Below are positions 16,244-60,290 of a stretch of DNA of 64,000 nucleotides, in pieces. Origin of the DNA: Opisthocomus hoazin (lineage: Eukaryota > Chordata > Aves > Opisthocomiformes > Opisthocomidae); contig NC_134414.1 of assembly GCF_030867145.1 (NCBI RefSeq), positions 23,182,810 through 23,246,809 of the forward strand, in the 5' to 3' direction. Made by a program: the position numbers and the translations under genes. Position 1 is the stretch's first letter; the number at the start of each line of letters is the position of its first letter. The notes under the pieces were generated by a model. That model saw nothing but the letters and a program-made list of their open reading frames with translations, did not search any database and was not told the origin of the DNA.

Positions 16244-17032
16244 TTAGCTACTTGTAAACCCTATAACTGTGTTCTGACAGCTATCAGATATTAACTCGTT
16301 CATTTCATTTTGTTTGGTTTCTTTGTTCTCATGGTTGGGGTGATGTTTTGCATTCCCAGCTTTTTTAGACCTTCTGAGGAAAAATTTTGCCAGTAAGTAA
16401 CATAATTCAGCCACATTTAAAAGAATGCAAATGCTGGACACGGCAATCATGAAAATAGTAAACACCGTCTTTTCCGTAGGTCGAGAAACAAAGCAGTCTA
16501 CTGTGTTGGGGCAGGGCCAAGCACTACACTTCATTAAGCGAGGCATTCGGAACCCATCATACATGAAATAAAACGCATACATGAAGACTGCTTCAAAGAC
16601 CAGTCTGAAGAAGATGCTGCCAGTGTACGTCCACCACAAGGAGCCCTCAATACGAAACCTCTGTCTTCTGATTTCTTCAATGTCCTTGTATTCGCATTTC
16701 TGGTCTCCCTTTCTGAACTGCCTTTTCTTCTCGTGCCTCCTGTAAGCTACGTGCATGGCCACCAGCAACGCAGGCGTGGAAACAAAGATCAGCTGCAGGG
16801 CCCAGAGTCTGATGTGAGAGATGGGGAAGAAGTGATCATAGCAAACATTTTTGCAACCAGGTTGCAGAGTGTTGCAGACAAAGTCATCTTGTTCATCCCC
16901 CCAGACTCTCTCCGCAGCCACAACCAGGATCATGATACGGAAGATGAACAGGACTGTGAGCCATATCTTCCCGATGCTGGTGGAGTGCTTATTTACACCT
17001 CCCAAAATGGTATGCAGACTTCCCCAATCCAT
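16244..17032 (-). CDS. GJB6: Gap junction beta-6 protein (connexin 30), complete single-exon coding region
   Basis: Encodes a 262-aa connexin, a four-pass membrane protein; six subunits form a hemichannel and two hemichannels dock into a gap junction passing ions and small metabolites between cells. Visible: N-terminus [19 protein letters not shown]; membrane segments near residues 22-41, 75-96, 131-155 and 188-210; first extracellular loop with C53, C60, C64 (C-x6-C-x3-C); second with C169, C174, C180 (C-x4-C-x5-C), then SRPTEKT at 183-189. These cysteine spacings are those of a beta connexin. GJB6 rather than GJB2 is chosen because the protein is about 35 residues longer than connexin 26, matches the roughly 261-residue length of mammalian connexin 30, and ends in the GJB6-type tail ([12 protein letters not shown] at 240-251, then an IGF-containing terminus). 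G11, V37, D50 and A88, positions known from human GJB6 disease variants or the channel pore, are unchanged. The start is the conserved MDWG; the stop is TAA at 16244-16246. The reading frame is intact and no intron interrupts it, as is usual for connexins. Confidence 0.95.
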
Positions 17033-17054
17033 TGTCTTGTTTTAATCGTCTGAC
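17033..17054 (-). other. GJB6: GJB6 coding-exon 5' UTR and splice acceptor
   Basis: On the minus strand a pyrimidine-rich run (TTTGTCTTGTCTTAG) ends in AG at plus positions 17056-17055, an excellent 3' splice site. This leaves 22 nt of 5' UTR (17054 down to 17033) before the ATG. In human GJB2 the single intron also lies between c.-23 and c.-22 (the classic c.-23+1G>A splice variant), so the position matches the paralogue exactly. The match is seen in the sequence; use of the site is inferred. Confidence 0.8.
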
Positions 17055-26812: not shown

Positions 26813-27043
26813 CATAGAATCACAGAATCACAGAATAGTAGGGGTTGGAAGGGACCTCTGTGGGTCATCTAGTCCAACCCCCCTGCCGAAGCAGGGTCAC
26901 CTACAGTAGGCTGCACAGGATCTTGTCCAGGCGGGTCTTGAATATCTCCAGAGAAGGAGACTCCACAACCTCCCTGGGCAGCCTGTTCCAGGGCTCCGTC
27001 ACCCTCAGAGGGAAGAAGTTCTTCCTCATGTTCCGACGGAAGA
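26813..27043 (-). mobile_element. CR1 LINE 3' fragment
   Basis: Starts with the reverse complement of the CR1 3' end (repeated AGAATCACAGAAT, then GGTTGGAAGGGACCTCTGTG). It continues into the end of the reverse-transcriptase frame: on the minus strand it encodes RKNFFPLRVTEPWNRLPREV followed by ESPSLEIFKTRLDKIL, the CR1 C-terminus. Truncated at its 5' end, about 230 bp kept. Lies about 700 bp upstream of the GJB6 CpG island. Confidence 0.93.
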
Positions 27044-37600: not shown

Positions 37601-40021
37601 TGTCTGCAATTCTGGCACTCAGCAGTTTGTATGGTTGGAGGTAACAGTGCCTGGCCATGATCTCCTGTGGTTGCAAACCTCCAGCCTCCCGGGTGTCCTC
37701 CCAGCACAGGGTCTTCCTGCCTTGCTGTGCAAAGTGAAGAAGTGAGGTGGTGCTTTGGAAACTGCCTCCTGCTCTTCCTTCCCTCACCCTGTACAGAAAA
37801 ACTGTTTTCCTTCCACCACATGCAGGATCTCCCATGGCTGCAGGGAAGGAAAGATTTGCTTCTTAGCCACGAAACCAAATTTGTTTTGGTTGAAGATTTT
37901 TCTCCACCCAGTGAAAACAGAGCCAGGAAATTTGTTTCGGACATCTCAGCTGGGACTGGAGAGATGGGTGAGAGGGGAGACCATCAACTGAATGGGGCCA
38001 CCAGAGCGTCCCTGACATAAGAAATGAGAGAAAATTCATATAAAAGCCAAGTGAGAGGCAGACACAAAGACATGCTAACTTGTGCTCTGGTCATCTATGT
38101 GGTCCTCTGCCAGGAGGAGGGAAAGACTAGAAAAAAGGGAAGGGCAGGTATGAAATGGGATTGGCAACCATCACCGGCTTAACCAAAATGGACACTTAAT
38201 AATGTGTAGAAGTGGTGACTCAGATTTTGAGGCTGTCTTTTAATTTAGGATCGATGTATGTGTAGATTACATGGCACATTTGCAGGAGGAGTGCTCACAG
38301 AATATAGATGTTATTAGAGCAGGATAATTATTCATATTTGGTGTCAAGCCAAAAGTCACATTACAGAAAGGTCTTAAATGCAAGTCTAACGAAATAATTC
38401 AAATGCAGAAATGAGAATGGCAGGATTGATCAGTGTGTAAAGGATGACTCACACCAAACTTGGACTGTTTCATTTTTGTGTGAGTTGCCTTAAATTCAAC
38501 AAAGCAAATCCCATAACAGTAGCTGTTTTCAGCTAGGGCAGGTGAAGGCTTCAGCTCTTGAGAAACGATCGGTCTGCTGCACAGAAGGACCATGTAAATA
38601 ACCCTCACGGGGAATTTTGGAGGGCAGGATCTGTCCAGGCTTACCCACTGCCCTGTTCTGGTGTTTCCTCCGTCTCCCTGCGGAAGATGGAGCTGTAGAA
38701 AGCAAGCTCTTTGATGGGCTGTTTCCCTGTGCCACAGGGCTGATGCATCACCCCGAGGTGCTCAGGATATGAGAGGGAAGCCGGGGTGCCTAGGAAGCCT
38801 TTTAACTCTTCTCCACAACCATAAACATTTCTGTTTAACTTCCAGATTCCCCCTTCCCTCAGGGGAAACTGCTGCTTGTTTCTCTTTTGCCACTGGATGT
38901 GAGTGCAGGCCTGTTATTACTGGCACTCCCTTCCCATGGATGCATTTGTCTTGGTTCAAGAGACTCTAGTAAATTCTGAATTTTTAAAAGGGGAACTAGA
39001 GACTTTTTTGTTAAAGCCTCCTGTATTTTATATGAGCAGAGCAGTTCTCTCTGTTCCAGTACGTTTTCCATCACCGGGGCCTTGAGCATCAAGGACTCCT
39101 TCTTTACCTGGTACTTCACATACAACTCTGCTCTTTCTTCAACCATACAATAACTGCACCAGTAACAAAATAGAAGTCTGCCTGTAAAACAAAATTATAT
39201 AGAAAATTAACAAAAGCAGAGAACAAGGCAGAGGTAAATAACTGCTCTTTCTCAGCTTTTATGAGAGACGAGTCCCATGCATAAAATCCGCATCCCAAAT
39301 GCAAGCAGGAAGGAGAGCTGCAAGGCACAGATGTCCAGAGGGTTTCGGTTTGTCCAGGTGCTTCTGTGATGTTTCCCAGCACGGCCCACACTGTCCCAGG
39401 ACCAGTCTTACCCAGCTGCCCGAAATCCAGGCTGCTGCAACCACCTGAGGCTCTCACCTCCAGGAGAGACCTTGTGTTCCCCTGGGATGCAGAGCCACGG
39501 CTTACACCAGCAATTGCTGGGTCAGTGACAGGACAGAAACTGGTGTCTTCAAAGACTGCGTGACCTCTGGACCGTGCCACAAGCCGAGCAGGGGCAGAAA
39601 GCATTTTCTTGTCTTGTTCTGTCAAACGGTGTCCAAGACCTACCCTTCCACTTCTGCTATTCCCTCAAGGACTTTATTCTATTTTCTTTTTCTTCTATTT
39701 TTTTTAATAAATATTTGTCCTGAAAACGGCCTTTCTGAAGCGGATACAATCCAAATAAAGCCCAAACTCCAAATCATCAGAATTTCCCCCATCTCTGAGT
39801 GCTCTCGGGCCCCCTCTGCTCTAAGCACTGGGCCTCCAAGCCCATCTCACCAGCACATAGTAAAGCTCATGGAGGAGAGGGATATCAGACCAGCCTGTGT
39901 TTTGCATGCCTCCGTGGCTTTGTCGTGACACATATTACCTCCCACCCACCAACCCCATTGTGACTATGTAGGTCTTCCAAATCCTTTTGGGAAATCACAC
40001 ATATGCTTCTTTTTTGAAGAA

Positions 40022-40068
40022 TTTGTATAGTGGTGAGTATCCCTGCCTGTCACGCAGGAGACCGGGGT
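40022..40068 (+). mobile_element. Internal tRNA-Asp(GUC) fragment joined to a CR1 5' end
   Basis: From G at 40025 the sequence follows vertebrate tRNA-Asp: GTATAGTGGTGAGTATCC (D arm, nucleotides 10 on), anticodon loop CTGTCAC with GTC anticodon, then GGAGACCGGGGT to about nucleotide 53. The anticodon stem CCTGC/GCAGG is fully paired; relative to the common form one base pair differs on both sides, as in a real tRNA variant. The acceptor stem (nucleotides 1-6) and most of the T arm are missing. The next base begins CR1 sequence. It is not a functional tRNA gene. Confidence 0.8.
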
Positions 40069-42255
40069 GGATGTCAAGATCAGAGGTAGCCTGGGCTGCA
40101 GTGACCACGCGCTGGTGGAACTAATGCTACTGAGGGAAATGGGAATAACGAAGAGCATAGTCAGGACCCTAAATTTTAGGAGGGCAAATTTCCAGCTCTT
40201 CAAGGAGATAGTCAGAAGGACTCCCTGGGAAACGGTCCTCAGGGACAGGGGAACAGAACAGAGCTGGCAGGTCTTTAAGGATGTATTCCAGAGAGCGCAA
40301 GAGCTCTCGATCCCCAAGTGTAAGAAGTCGGGCAGAGAAGGGAAGAGACCAGCATGGCTGAGGCAAGAGATGCTGGTCAAACTAAGGAAGAAGAGGGAAC
40401 TGCACAGGTAGTGGAAGCAGGGACTGGCTTCCTGGGAAGAGTATAGGGAAGTTGCCCGGTTGTGTAGGGATGGGGTCAGGAAGGCCAAGGCACAGCTGGA
40501 GCTGAACTTGGCAAGGGATGCAAAAAATAACAAGAAGGGCTTCTACAGGTATGTCAGCCGGAAAAAGATGGTCAGAGAAAGCGTACCCCTGCTCATGAGC
40601 GAGACCAGCAAACTGGCAACAGCAGATGAGGAGAAAGCTGAGGTACTCAACAACTTTTTTGCCTCAGTCATCACTGGCAAACTCTCTCCTCACCCCTCCC
40701 GAGTCGATGGATGGCATGAAGGAGACCAGGACGGTAAAATCCCTCCAGCTGTAAGTGAAGACCAGGTTCGGGACCTCCTGAAGAACCTAAACGTACAGAA
40801 TTCCATGGGACCTGATGAGATGCATCCCAGAGTCCTGAGGGAACTGGCTGCTGTAGTTGCCAAGCCACTCTCCATGATATTTGAAAAGTCATGGCAGTCA
40901 GGGGAAGTCCCCAGTGACTGGAAAAAGGGAAACATTGTGCCCCTTTTCAAAAAGGGTAGAAAGGAAGACCCTGGGAACTACCGACCTGTCAGCCTCACCT
41001 CTGTGCCTGGGAAGATCATGGAACAGATCCTCCTAGAAGATATGCTAAGGCACATAGAGGCCAGGGAGGTGATTCGAGACAGCCAGCATGGCTTCAACAA
41101 GGGCAAGTCCTGCCTCACCAACCTAGTGGCTTTCTATGATGGTGTAACAACAAGGGTGGACAAGGGAAAACCAATGGATGTCATCTATCTGGATTTTTGT
41201 AAAGCCTTTGACATGGTCCCCCACAACATCCTTCTCTCCAAATTGGAGAGCCATGGATTTGATGGGTGGACCGTTCGGTGGATAAGGAATTGGTTGGATG
41301 GTTGCAGCCAAAGGGTAGTGGTCAACGGCTCAATGTCCGGATGGAGACCAGTGACGAGTGAAGTCCCTCAGGGGTCCGTACTGGGACCGGTGCTGTTCAA
41401 TGTATTTATCAATGACATGGACAGCGATATCGAGTGTACCCTCAGCAAGTTTGCAGATGACACCAAGCTGAGTGGTACGGTTGAGACACCAGAAGGACGG
41501 GATGCCATCCAGAGGGACCTGGACAAGCTGGAGAGGTGGGCCTGTGTGAACCTCATGAGGTTCAACAAGGCCAAGTGCAAGGTCCTACACATGGGTCGGG
41601 GTAATCCCCGGTATCAATACAGGCTGGGGGATGAAAGGATCGAGAGCAGCTCTGCTGAGAGGGACTTGGGGGTACTGATAAACAAAAGGCTGGACATGAG
41701 CCGGCAATGTGCGCTGGCAGCCCAGATGGCCAACCGTGTCCTGGGCTGCATCAAGAGAAGCGTGGCCAGCAGGTCGAGAGAGGTGATTCTGCCCCTCTAC
41801 TCTGCTCTGGTGAGACCTCACCTGGAGTACTGCGTTCAGCTCTGGAGCCCTCAGCACAAGAAGGACATGGAACTGTTGCAGCGGGTCCAAAGGAGGGCTA
41901 CAAAAATGATCCAAGGGCTGGAGCACCTCTCCTATGAGAACAGGTTGAGAGAGCTGGGCTTGTTCAGCCTGGAGAAGAGAAGGCTGCGGGGAGACCTGAT
42001 TGCAGCATTTCAGTACTTAAAGGGAGCCTATAGGAAAGATGGGGACAATCTTTTTAGTAGAGGCAGCAGTGACAGGACGAGGGGTAATGGTTTTAAACTA
42101 AAACAGGGTAGGTTTAGGCTGGATATAAGGAAGAAATTCTTTACAATGAGGGTTGTGAAACACTGGAACGGGTTGCCCAGAGAGGTAGTGGAGGCCCCAT
42201 CCCTGGAAACATTCAAGACCAGGTTGGACAGGGCTCTGAGCAACCTGATCTAGTT
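40069..42255 (+). pseudogene. CR1 endonuclease/reverse transcriptase, one in-frame stop
   Basis: A single reading frame runs from the truncated endonuclease end to NLI-stop at 42254-42255, broken only by TAG at 40409-40411 (after RELHR, before [20 protein letters not shown]). The downstream open part from the ATG at 40460 is 597 codons. RT motifs visible in that part are [14 protein letters not shown] (about residues 243-256, catalytic D245), [12 protein letters not shown] (after about 300) and FADDTKL (FADD at 331-334, catalytic D333/D334). The C-terminus has [20 protein letters not shown]. The element copied itself by target-primed reverse transcription. Loss of the N-terminal endonuclease and the stop codon make it inactive, but the otherwise clean frame shows recent insertion. 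An annotation pipeline could mistake the frame for a host gene. Confidence 0.9.
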
Positions 42256-42351
42256 AGCGGTGTCCCTGCTCGCTGCAGGGGGGTTGGACTAGATGACCTC
42301 TAGGGGTCCCTTCCGACCCAAAACTTTCTATGATTCTATGATGATCCTATG
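40069..42351 (+). mobile_element. Long, young CR1 LINE (5'-truncated)
   Basis: About 2.3 kb non-LTR retrotransposon. It starts inside the last part of the endonuclease domain (SDHALVEL shortly after the start), carries an almost complete reverse-transcriptase region, then a short 3' UTR (GGTTGGACTAGATGACC), and ends in the CR1 octamer-type tail TTCTATGATTCTATGATG. The 5' end is lost and replaced by a tRNA-Asp fragment, so no promoter or ORF1 remains. No obvious target-site duplication was seen, as is usual for CR1. The 3' UTR differs from that of the copies at 47.2, 50.1 and 56.3 kb, so it is another subfamily. Confidence 0.96.
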
Positions 42352-45300
42352 CTTGGCTTCCCCACTCATTTTCCCAGCCTAAGCCCAGAGAACAAGTGTT
42401 CCCCGGGGCTTTTCCTTGGCGGACCCCTTGGCATGAGGCAGGAGTCTTAAGAAAGAAAACTTTACATGAGCTCCTTAAGCCTCACCTTGATTCGACCTCT
42501 TCCCCCTTTGCAAAGTCAAGGTAATGCTTCCACCTTGGCGTTGGCTGGCTGGGGCTGGTGGTGCAGCTGAGTATGTACCTACATGCTTTCAGATGGATCC
42601 GGAGCGCTCACAGTTCTCATCGACAGCTCATGTCCTGCAGATCACAATCTCCCAGGGTAAAAAATGAATACAGAGGACCCTGATCCCTGCAGGCCTGGTA
42701 GAAAGTGTGCAGTGATTGAAAGAATAATAACACATGTCAGACGTACACAGGCTGAGGAGGCAGCGAAGGAACTTAATGAAAAAACAGATCCTAACAAGCA
42801 TGGGATACTAATTTTAAGAAGTAATTCAGGTATTACTTATTGCTTAAGGGCAAAATTCATGCTGCCTAACATACTTTCCTAAGTCTGCAATGTGTGGCCT
42901 TTGCAACACCCTAAGTAGGCACTTTTTAACACTTCCCATGTCCACAAAGAGGTCTCTATAACGTGTGCCACATCAGATATTCACAAGGAAACAGCATGAT
43001 TTCAGGAATGCATTTAAGTGTTGTAAAGGAGATCCCTGATGAGATCTCTCCCTGAAGGGTCCAGGCTGCCATTACCACCACGCTGAGCAGGGAGGAGGAG
43101 AAGATGTCCATTAACCCCTTCATTAAGTGCTGAGATGGCAGTCACAAGTCAGGGTGCGTCCAGAAGAGCCAGATGAACAACTTTTGCAGAGAGCAGAAAT
43201 GCCACTTAAATCCCACAGGGCTGTGGACAGTACCAGCAGCAACACCACCGAGTTTTGGTGCAACTTTCCATTTCCAGAGCTTGGAGAAGCCCACGGTGAT
43301 TACCCAGCCAAATCTGCCATCAGGGAAGCAGAAATTTCTGTTTTAGAGGTGAGAAATGCCAGAGCATGGAGAAGGCAACCTTAGTGCGCTAACATCAAGC
43401 AGCCATCAGCACAGGACCAGGAGACAGGCCTGTGACCCGCAAACCTGTCTCCTAAGGTCATCTTCTCCACCAGAGCATTCAGATTTTGTCACTTTTTCTT
43501 TTCCTTTGTTCCCTAGCTACAAGAAAAATGTGATTATGAATTCTGTCACTGTCTGCCCTACCCTGAGCTGTGTGGCTGCAGGAGAAGGCAGTGGACTTTG
43601 TCCCTCCGACTGCCAGGTTCAGCACACCTCCTGAACACCAGGTGTGGGGAAGCAATGTAGCAGGGTGCAGAGGGGACCAGCCACGGGGAGAGGCAAGCAC
43701 AAAGCATCTGCCAGCCCCCCGGCGCAGCTTTCCTCACAGCAGCACGCTCACGCACAGAGGTGGCAATAGATGGTGATGGTCTGCCAAGCTGTTGTTTATA
43801 GCAGCTTCTCCATTGTCTCCCCTAGCTCCCACTGGGACACTGGGTGGATAGATGATGTCGTCAGCCATCCCCATAGAGTTTGCTAAAAGAACACAAGGTC
43901 ACTGCTCTGCTCTGCTCAAAGTCATGGCCTCAGGAGTAGCCAAGGTCTTGTTTAGTCATACAAGGACTAAAGGGTCCCAACTGAAGGGCTCTGAGGAAAG
44001 GATGTTCCTCAGCCTAACGGGCTGCCTCTGCAGGCGAACGGTATTTGGGGTTGGGCACCCGCACACGGGGGCATCTCAGTGTGCGGTAACACCTCTGCTC
44101 AGCAATCTCTACCCAGATCTCAGCCATCCCCTGTGGATCACAGCCAAGACAACATCCCATACGAGGAAACTCTGGGAAAGTATTAGTGGACGTTTACTGA
44201 AGAACGGTAAGAATGTAGAAATGTTATCCAGAACTGGACTTCCAATATCCCTGGCTCGTCACAAACCAAGTTCTCTTGAGGTCCTCACCAACAACCTCCC
44301 TCAGCATTAGCAGGAGCTAAACATGTGGGAGGGGAAAGAAACAAGTACCTTAAAAATCAAATTACCGTGCAAACCAGAAAGCAAAGAATATATTGCATGA
44401 GCTGAATCTTCCTGTATAGAACTGCCAATGTGCAAAAGAGAAACAAATTAATTTTCTAACAAACATCAGTGCATATTTCAAATAACATCAAGTTTCCATT
44501 TCCAGTCCTTTTCTCCTCCCTTCTTTCTTTCTTTCTTTCTTCCCTGTTTTCCTCTCTAAATTTCATTTTGGTAAATATTTCTCCCTGTTGCTGAGATAAC
44601 CATATCTGATTGCAGAGGCTTGAAGTGTAACTGATGATGAAAGACTACCCGAGGGATACAGGAGTGCATACACCACAGGGGTGTGGACATAAACCCCTGA
44701 AATAAGCCGGCAGTATGACCAGAGTTGTTCTTCCTGTAGGTTAACTCAAGATAAGAACTTGCTTGCCACCTGCACAGGGAGTTAGACCAAACTGAATCCC
44801 TCACGGCTGTTAAAAAACCACCAGGACTGTTGGCTTGAGATGGGGCAGAGTCTGCGGGTTGGGGGGCCAGGAGGGGGCTGAGCCCCCCACCAACCTTTTC
44901 TGACACAACATCTACTGGCGACCCTCTATCCTGATGGCGCGGCCCCAGCCGGGAGGGTGGGAGGAGAGGCTCAGCCCCACCAGCTGGAACCAGGCTTTTG
45001 CTCCAGGTAGGCTTTCTGGCTCAGGGTTGGCACTGTTGCAGCAGGTCCTCCTGCACCGAACTCACGGGCACCTCCGCCTTTTCTTGGCAGGCTTCAGCTC
45101 CCCCACAGCGCCATGGTCCCCAGTGGGCGTGGGGGTGGCCTCCCAACCCTTTGGGGGGGTTTACATGAAGGCAGCCGAACACCTCTGTCCAGGGCACAGG
45201 CAACAAAGCATGGGAGGAGTGGACGACTTATGGCCCTGGACTGGTGTAGTCAGCGCTGGGGCGGCTTCGCTGCGTGCCACCCCAGCAGGTCCCCACAGCG

Positions 45301-50097: not shown

Positions 50098-51163
50098 AAG
50101 CAGGATAAAGAACTGGCTGAATGGCTGAGCACAGAGAGTGGTGGTGAATGGAGTTAAGTCCAGCTGGCGGGCGGTTACAAGTGGTGTTCCCAAGGGCTCA
50201 GTTTTGGGTCCGGTCTTGTTTAACATCTTCATCAATGCTCTGGATGAGGGGATTGAGTGCTCCCTCAGTAAGTCTGCAGATGACACCAAGCTGGGAAGGA
50301 GTGTTGATCTGCTCGAGGGTAGGAAGGCTCTGCAGAGGGATCTGGACAGACTGGAGCGATGGGCCAAGGCCAACTGTATGAGGTTCAACAAGGTCAAGTG
50401 CCGGCTCCTGCACCTGGGTCACAAAAACCCCCTGCAACACTACAGGCTTGGGGAGGAGTGGCTGGAAAGCTGCCCGGAGGAAAAGGACCTTGGAGTGTTG
50501 GTCGACAGCTGGCTGAACATGAGCCAGCACTGTGCCCAGGTGGCCAAGAAGGCCAATGGCATCCTGGCTTGTGTCAGGAACAGTGTAGCCAGCAGGAGTA
50601 GGGAGGTGCTTGCGCCCCTGTACTTGGCACTGGTGAGGCCGCACCTGGAGTACTGTGTTCAGTTTTGGGCCCCTCACTACAAGAAGGACATTGAGGTGCT
50701 GGAGCATGGCCAGAGAAGGGCAGCGAGGCTGGTGAGGGGTCTAGAGAGCAAGTCTCATGAGGAGTGGCTGAAGGAACTGGGGCTGTTTAGTCTGGAGAAG
50801 AGGAGGCTGAGGGAGGACCTTATTGCTCTCTACAGCTACCTGAAAGGAGGTTGAAGTGAGGCAGGTGTTGGTCTCTTCTCCCAGGTAACTAGCGACAGGA
50901 CAAGAGGCAATGGCATCTAAGTTGCATCAGGGGAGGTTTAGATTGGATATTAGGAAAAATTTCTTTATTGCAAGAGTGGTCAGGCATTGGAACAGGCTGC
51001 CCAAGGAAGGGGTGGAGTCCCCATCCCTGGAGGTGTTTAAGAAACATGTAGATATGGCACTTTGGGATATGGTTTAGTAGGCATGGTGTTGTTGGGTGGA
51101 TGGTTGGACTTCATGATCTTAGAGGTCTTTTCCAACCTATGATTCTATGATTCTGTGATTCTA
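50098..51163 (+). mobile_element. CR1 LINE, 3' third
   Basis: Begins inside the RT domain (RIKNWLNG, then [20 protein letters not shown]). It runs to the 3' end TTAGAGGTCTTTTCCAACC followed by ATTCTATGATTCTGTGATTC. About 1.07 kb, strongly 5'-truncated. The RT motif reads SADD where the copy at 40.07 kb has FADD. Its 3' UTR (GGATATGGTTTAGTAGGCAT) marks the same subfamily as the fragments at 47.2 and 56.3 kb. Confidence 0.95.
50102..51076 (+). pseudogene. CR1 reverse transcriptase C-terminal part, broken
   Basis: The frame is open for 238 codons (50138-50854) but is broken by TGA at 50126-50128 (after NWLNG) and by a TGA after YLKGG at about 50852-50854, where other CR1 copies have tryptophan. 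A +1 shift follows near 50917 (after GNGI), after which the third frame carries [20 protein letters not shown]-like sequence to the normal end near 51076. Older or faster-decaying than the 40.07 kb copy. Confidence 0.85.
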
Positions 51164-59714: not shown

Positions 59715-60290
59715 GGTCTTTGCTCTGACCTGCTGCTCACAGCAGGCTCAGCTCTGAGGTCAGACCAGGCCACTCAGGGCTTCATCCAGTTGGGACTTGA
59801 AAACCTCCAAGGACGGAGACCGCACCACCTCTGCGGACAACCTGTGCCTCTGCCTGTCTGCCCTCATGGGGGAAAGTGTCTCCTCACATCCAGGCTGGAA
59901 CTCTTGCATTTTAACTCATGTCCATTGTCTCTATCTTCTCCCCCAGCCCCAATGTGGAGAGCCTGGCTCTGTCTCCTCGATGGTCTCCCCACAGGCACCA
60001 GGGTCTGCTGTCAGGTCCCCCTGAAGCCATCTCTGCTCCAGGCTGGACAAGCCCAGCTCCCTCAGCCTCTCCTGGCAGGACCAGTGCTCCAGCCTCACTA
60101 TCTCGGGGACCTCCCTGACCATTTGTCCAATGTCTTTCTTGTACCAGGGAGCCCCAAGCTGGGCGCAGGATTCAGCCACAGTCTAATGACTGATGAGTAA
60201 AGGGGATTAATTGTGAGCAGGGTACAGGTCCCTGGGATAAGGACAGCCCTTCTCATTCCTTTAGCTACCTTCTCCTCACGCTTTCCAGTT
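59715..60290 (-). mobile_element. Old CR1 LINE fragment (about 0.55 kb)
   Basis: Matches the reverse complement of CR1 RT 3' half and UTR: CTTCATCCAGTTGGGACTTG, AAAACCTCCAAGGACGGAGA, CCATTGTCTCTATCTTCTCC, GGCTGGACAAGCCCAGCTCC, AATGTCTTTCTTGTACCAGG, and on to GATGAGTAAAGGGGATTAAT. On the minus strand this includes fragments such as KELGLSS-like and GLSSLEQRWLQGDL. Considerably diverged, with several small indels, so older than the copies at 40-51 kb. Both edges are approximate. Confidence 0.88.

Follow-up and report, generated by a model that had tools for sequence, protein, structure and literature searches.

How did an internal piece of tRNA-Asp come to stand directly at the 5' end of a CR1 retrotransposon? 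The question is raised by a locus in the 64,000-nucleotide stretch of Opisthocomus hoazin DNA analysed here (the window), where the following features adjoin or overlap:

Positions 40022..40024, + strand: TTT in place of the TTA of tRNA-Asp nt 7-9; ambiguous between host DNA and tRNA nt 7-9 in which A9 was read as T, since the BLAST match reaches nt 7 with one mismatch and the stretch is too short to decide.
Positions 40025..40068, + strand: tRNA-Asp(GTC) nt 10-53, comprising the D arm, anticodon arm, variable region, 5' side of the T stem and first T-loop base; 42/44 identity, also located by a whole-genome pattern search.
Positions 40069..42342, + strand: 5'-truncated CR1, with the end of the presumed endonuclease domain, the reverse transcriptase and the 3' end; 39 other matched places, 19 copies compared over 2274 bases.
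Positions 42325..42342, + strand: CR1 3' octamer repeat TTTCTATG ATTCTATG AT; a tail of like kind ends 19 of 20 fetched copies.

The initial annotation had described about 45 bp of tRNA-Asp(GUC), running from near nt 10 to near nt 53, and the alignment bears this out. Numbered linearly, nt 10-53 of the tRNA agree with 40025-40068 at all positions except C29T and G41A when compared with an intact tRNA-Asp(gtc) gene of the same genome (L032:1495-1566, contig C13). The tRNA reference is letter-identical to this gene, which was called by ARAGORN. Linear nt 53, the 3' end of the piece, is presumably the conventional T54. In a BLAST comparison of tRNA-Asp(GTC) with the window, the only real match is 40022-40068 (E 9.9e-16; the runner-up has E 1.6). 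Neither Rfam (E up to 10) nor ARAGORN called a tRNA-Asp fragment in the window, which is unsurprising for an internal piece of 44 nt.

We take the adjoining element to be a CR1, and the domain names endonuclease and reverse transcriptase are likewise our assignment; what bears on the name directly is that 40069-42342 carries a reverse transcriptase open frame and a 3' octamer tail. The chimera has two open frames, 40037-40411 and 40412-42253; a stop codon occupies 40409-40411. With its start at 40069, in the last part of the endonuclease domain, the CR1 is truncated in that domain as originally described; its 3' end, however, is not at 42351, as had been stated, and lies at about 42342, judging from the tails of 19 of the 20 copies fetched for this comparison (L050 is split). 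The CR1 3' octamer is given as AUUCURUG in the available text of PMC5729268.

At the join the chimera reads CCGGGGT followed by GGATGTC, where tRNA-Asp itself reads CCGGGGT followed by TCGATT. Sixteen other CR1 copies can be read through on the + strand: upstream of GGATGTC, 13 have GTTGG or ATTGG, L006 and L008 have one extra G, and L029 has GTTGA. A T at the join position is found in none of the 16. The tRNA and CR1 templates thus differ on both sides of the join, so that zero bases are shared there. BLAST and the base-level join agree with the earlier claim that the tRNA piece and the CR1 have the same orientation and no spacer between them; as in small-RNA/LINE chimeras, a small RNA lies directly at the LINE 5' end and shares its orientation.

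The divergence of the two parts is compatible with a single age. When 2274 bases are aligned, the CR1 of the chimera departs from the majority of 19 copies at 40 positions (1.76%); 11 of 108 CpG bases have undergone transitions, and the copies' own divergence is 1.50-3.48%. In the tRNA piece, two of eight CpG bases and none of 36 other bases are changed, both mismatches being CpG transitions. At the CR1 CpG rate of the first count (8/72), at least two CpG changes in the tRNA piece have P ~0.22, and no other change has P = 0.64; since these CpG changes fit the CR1 rate, a common age is possible. The first divergence count kept 27 of 29 CR1 copies (L014 and L018, partial matches, were dropped) and the second kept 19 of 20 (L050, a partial match, was dropped). 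The altered bases 29T and 41A pair with each other and so restore the 29:41 base pair, which may reflect chance or a lost isodecoder. Under independent decay the re-pairing is a mild coincidence, and we count it against the explanation favoured below. A U29-A41 isodecoder was considered as the source and rejected: it is absent from both tRNA-Asp genes found, and two CpG changes suffice.

Joins of similar architecture occur between U6 snRNA and CR1 in the same genome. A U6 family search gave at least 18 matches (48 of 147852 first-look candidates were scored), and CR1 follows U6 on the same strand in eight of the 18 matches listed:

L059: U6 nt 1-107; CR1 similarity from 0 nt.
L060: U6 nt 2-107; CR1 similarity from 0 nt.
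L061: U6 nt 1-107; CR1 similarity from 10 nt.
L064: U6 nt 1-100; CR1 similarity from 4-5 nt.
L065: U6 nt 1-94; CR1 similarity from 7 nt by protein, 46 by DNA.
L067: U6 nt 1-64; CR1 similarity from 30 nt.
L069: U6 nt 2-58; CR1 similarity from 27 nt by protein, 49 by DNA.
L062: U6 nt 1-105; CR1 similarity from 114 nt by DNA, 122 by protein.

The distance from U6 to CR1 is within about 10 nt in five of these and 27-122 nt in three (L067, L069 and L062); in these three the CR1 references have diverged and the joins are less sure. U6 starts at nt 1 or 2 in all eight, a uniformity for which the ranking by a full-length U6 model, which favours full-length U6, may account; it ends short of the U6 3' end in five (nt 105, 100, 94, 64 and 58). 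The alignment reference was the L059 copy itself, of which the family model independently covers positions 1-105. Because the CR1 break points differ among the cases, they represent separate events. One of them, L060, sits in an older antisense CR1, which aligns over 92 bases with the insert kept and, once the flanks are joined, through 431 columns with 6 gaps: in L060, U6 and CR1 arrived as one unit, a result that speaks for L060 itself and not for the tRNA-Asp locus. The other ten matches (L063, L066, L068, L070-L075 and L076) are not chimeric; L063 has a sense CR1 about 1 kb off, and L076 an antisense CR1 about 110 nt off. Taken as a set, the U6/CR1 cases suggest that CR1 switching to small RNAs is repeated.

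Chimeras of U6 with LINEs have been studied before, reportedly by Doucet et al. in 2015. In the available text of PMC4476161, U6 likewise stands at the LINE 5' end, and its partners are L1, L2 and RTE-like elements; the cases here differ in being ungapped, with CR1 as the LINE and both tRNA-Asp and U6 as the small RNA. For birds, the open-licence literature as covered yielded a single U6/CR1 candidate, from turkey, in which a 5'-truncated U6 lies next to a CR1-like element with an assembly gap and which its authors left unresolved (PMC4476161, in the part available).

For the tRNA-Asp locus, one joint retrotransposition event for the tRNA piece and the CR1 is likely, and template switching during target-primed reverse transcription is the best fit, given that joins of U6 to CR1 recur in this genome. 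The fuller account, in which the CR1 reverse transcriptase switched from CR1 RNA to tRNA-Asp and stopped at m1A9, we hold to be probable on balance. The enzyme would have copied the CR1 RNA from its 3' end as far as the end of the endonuclease region before moving to a tRNA-Asp(GUC), whole or fragmentary, on which the first T-loop base offered a usable 3' end. It would have copied this RNA from nt 53 to nt 10 and stopped against m1A9, a candidate block taken from human data, whereupon the cDNA end would have been joined to the target. The initial annotation had proposed both a switch and a stop at a modified nt 9-10. The switch stands as the best fit given the U6/CR1 joins, while RNA ligation yields the same DNA; the stop has gained a candidate in m1A9, though one argued from a single locus. 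Two further points count against this explanation: a mechanism cannot be shown from one locus, and an intact tRNA does not end at nt 53.

At its 5' end the tRNA copy reaches G10, the neighbour of A9. Reverse transcriptases are halted or led to misread by m1A, and the T at 40024, opposite tRNA A9, could be such a misread base or host DNA. In human tRNA-Asp(GUC), TRMT10B converts nearly all A9 to m1A; among tRNAs encoded in the nucleus this is described as the first such case and probably the only one (PMC7293042, in its available sections). The U6 starts at nt 1-2 in all eight cases imply that the enzyme reached the RNA 5' end there. In platypus U6/L2 chimeras, however, U6 is almost always 5'-truncated, according to the accessible portion of PMC4476161; together with the truncated turkey U6 this means that early stops occur without m1A9. 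The m1A9 reading of nt 10 is weakened both by these truncated copies and by the search bias towards full-length U6.

The boundary at nt 53 has a counterpart of its own. The last 22 nt of mature tRNA-Asp start at linear nt 54, so the chimera ends at the point where a 22-nt 3' fragment would start, and a 22-nt tRF-3b of tRNA-Gly with the same TCGATTCC start is tabulated in the part of PMC8001983 available. A cut in the T loop may thus be the source of the 3' boundary. Both coincidences, at nt 10 and at nt 53, were spotted post hoc and at a single locus. A wider reading, which we advance tentatively and hold to be possible but short of probable, is that in birds small RNAs are regular switch targets of the CR1 reverse transcriptase and that the captured ends are a genomic fossil of an ancestral germ-line RNA state, namely m1A9 and a T-loop cut complementary to the 22-nt 3' tRNA fragment. 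If the stop at nt 10 does mark m1A9, chimeras would record RNA modification in DNA until the copies themselves are lost; and if the wider reading is true, a catalogue of chimeras would make ancient tRNA modification and cleavage readable from DNA.

The main rival to template switching is ligation before insertion, which predicts the same DNA product: a 5' fragment of tRNA-Asp (nt 1-53) would have been ligated to broken CR1 RNA, for instance by the tRNA ligase RtcB, and the product retrotransposed with a cDNA stop at nt 10. We regard this as unlikely, yet as an account to be taken seriously, since a join with zero overlap is what it would leave. As far as the available texts go, ligation by RtcB is the other route proposed for U6/LINE-1 (PMC13174262), and enzymes of the RNase A family are described as T-loop cutters (PMC8001983). 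The internal U6 ends in five of the eight U6/CR1 cases suit switching better than the joining of intact U6, if weakly: ligation could also act on U6 fragments, and U6 segments may have been cut short by local alignment. Chimeric insertions of tRNA with LINE-1 are known from 21 loci in the human lineage, and twin priming has been suggested for them (Law and Burns 2026, PMC13174262, available part). Like the locus here, they carry a partial tRNA at the LINE 5' end within one insertion; unlike it, they contain mostly antisense tRNA halves, whereas here nt 10-53 are in sense orientation and joined to CR1, and the eight cases checked there had target-site duplications of 9-19 bp (same source, in part).

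Target-site repeats are also relevant to a second rival, in which a fragment of tRNA-Asp DNA or cDNA was captured as repair filler while the CR1 5' end was being joined to the chromosome. Truncated LINE 5' ends are closed by end joining, which would give an opportunity for such capture, and the chimera has no flush target-site duplication of at least 5 bases, a lack that also counts against the favoured explanation. The only candidate repeat is doubtful:

Positions 40002..40008, + strand: TATGCTT, 16 bases from the tRNA piece, a 7-mer in common with 42348-42354.
Positions 42348..42354, + strand: TATGCTT, the second copy.

It is not flush and is equalled in 64 of 2000 random pairs, and we rejected it as a target duplication. 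CR1 target-site duplications are usually short or absent. Since the six U6/CR1 cases examined likewise have no flush repeat (threshold at least 6 bases), its absence at the chimera is not odd. Against capture during repair, the tRNA piece is in sense orientation, as is U6 in the eight U6/CR1 cases, which moreover start at U6 nt 1-2, and gene DNA offers no reason for a stop at nt 10; we consider filler improbable.

Insertion of the CR1 into an older tRNA-Asp gene or relic is very improbable, even though the CR1 begins right beside the tRNA piece. Neither the missing nt 1-9 upstream (score reached by 1883 of 2000 random stretches) nor nt 54-72 downstream (227 of 2000) was found in the flanks. 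The initial annotation had judged such an insertion a poor fit from the missing acceptor stem and the T arm that does not continue downstream; flank scores at random level support this rejection well, and the other tRNA half, which it had named as the finding that would speak for insertion, does not follow the CR1 3' end. In a genome search that skipped common words, the 5' flank (39600-40024) matched only itself, so no paralogous empty site was found.

The join itself occurs once. A 186-base query across it, run against the 1.48-Gb assembly, gave 40 scored matches from 1032 candidates; among these best 40, the tRNA part is covered solely by the window's own copy (G000, contig C1), and the other 39 begin at query base 52-57, in CR1 or at most 3 bases from it. 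Searched through the whole assembly with up to 3 mismatches, the 44-mer tRNA block occurs at three places, the chimera and intact tRNA-Asp genes on C13 and C8, and the pattern written backwards, as a control, at none. A longer tRNA-Asp pattern finds only the two genes; a shorter one adds a degraded copy, L080 (C9:21959658-21959683, - strand), and tRNA-Asp pieces more degraded or shorter than this lie below the reach of these patterns. L080 was rejected as a second chimera, its only CR1 being antisense and more than 1 kb off. It heads a decayed row of tRNAs, whose next stretches, on visual inspection, resemble tRNA-Val and tRNA-Lys.

At up to 3 mismatches, then, the assembly contains a single chimera and no SINE family, which settles the copy-number check that had been proposed for the host genome. 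Tested against the marks of a tRNA-derived SINE, many copies and promoter boxes A and B, the chimera has one copy, an A-box-like word at 40023 with one change, and a tRNA part devoid of a B box (40000-42400 has a single B-like word, which lies at 40765 and carries 2 changes). Membership in a tRNA-headed SINE or LINE family can thus be practically dismissed, the PittSINE of pittas, with its tRNA-Asp head and CR1 tail (PMC5729268, available text), being the one precedent in its favour. Our earlier suggestion that this type of event could give birth to a SINE does not extend to this copy: with no B box, no copies found and 2.3 kb of CR1 carried along, it could not easily have founded one.

A switch of this kind is the presumed origin of SINEs that combine a tRNA head with a LINE tail, and for birds the literature covered had inferred it from a finished family, PittSINE. 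That family, as described in the available part of PMC5729268, is amplified, has promoter boxes A and B and a tail common to TguSINE1 and CR1-X, and its authors propose template switching to tRNA-Asp; the chimera, in contrast, is one copy with no B box and a long CR1 that includes the reverse transcriptase. Here the raw event is visible in a young copy, with the likely source gene in the same genome. Chimeras of tRNA with L1 and a tRNA-Asp/CR1 SINE were already known; here the event is caught in CR1, where the literature covered had inferred it. Among titles and abstract openings of the open-licence literature, we found no resolved tRNA/CR1 chimera outside SINEs.

Contig C40 (50 Mb) holds eight of the 40 listed CR1 matches and about 3% of the assembly; it is perhaps the W chromosome, which is a guess. 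The window has further CR1 fragments at 50103-51159, 26819-27029 and 60005-60094, with 69-80% identity to the CR1 of the chimera. It also has a long open frame on the - strand, at 16244-17041, which we take to be a GJB-type connexin.
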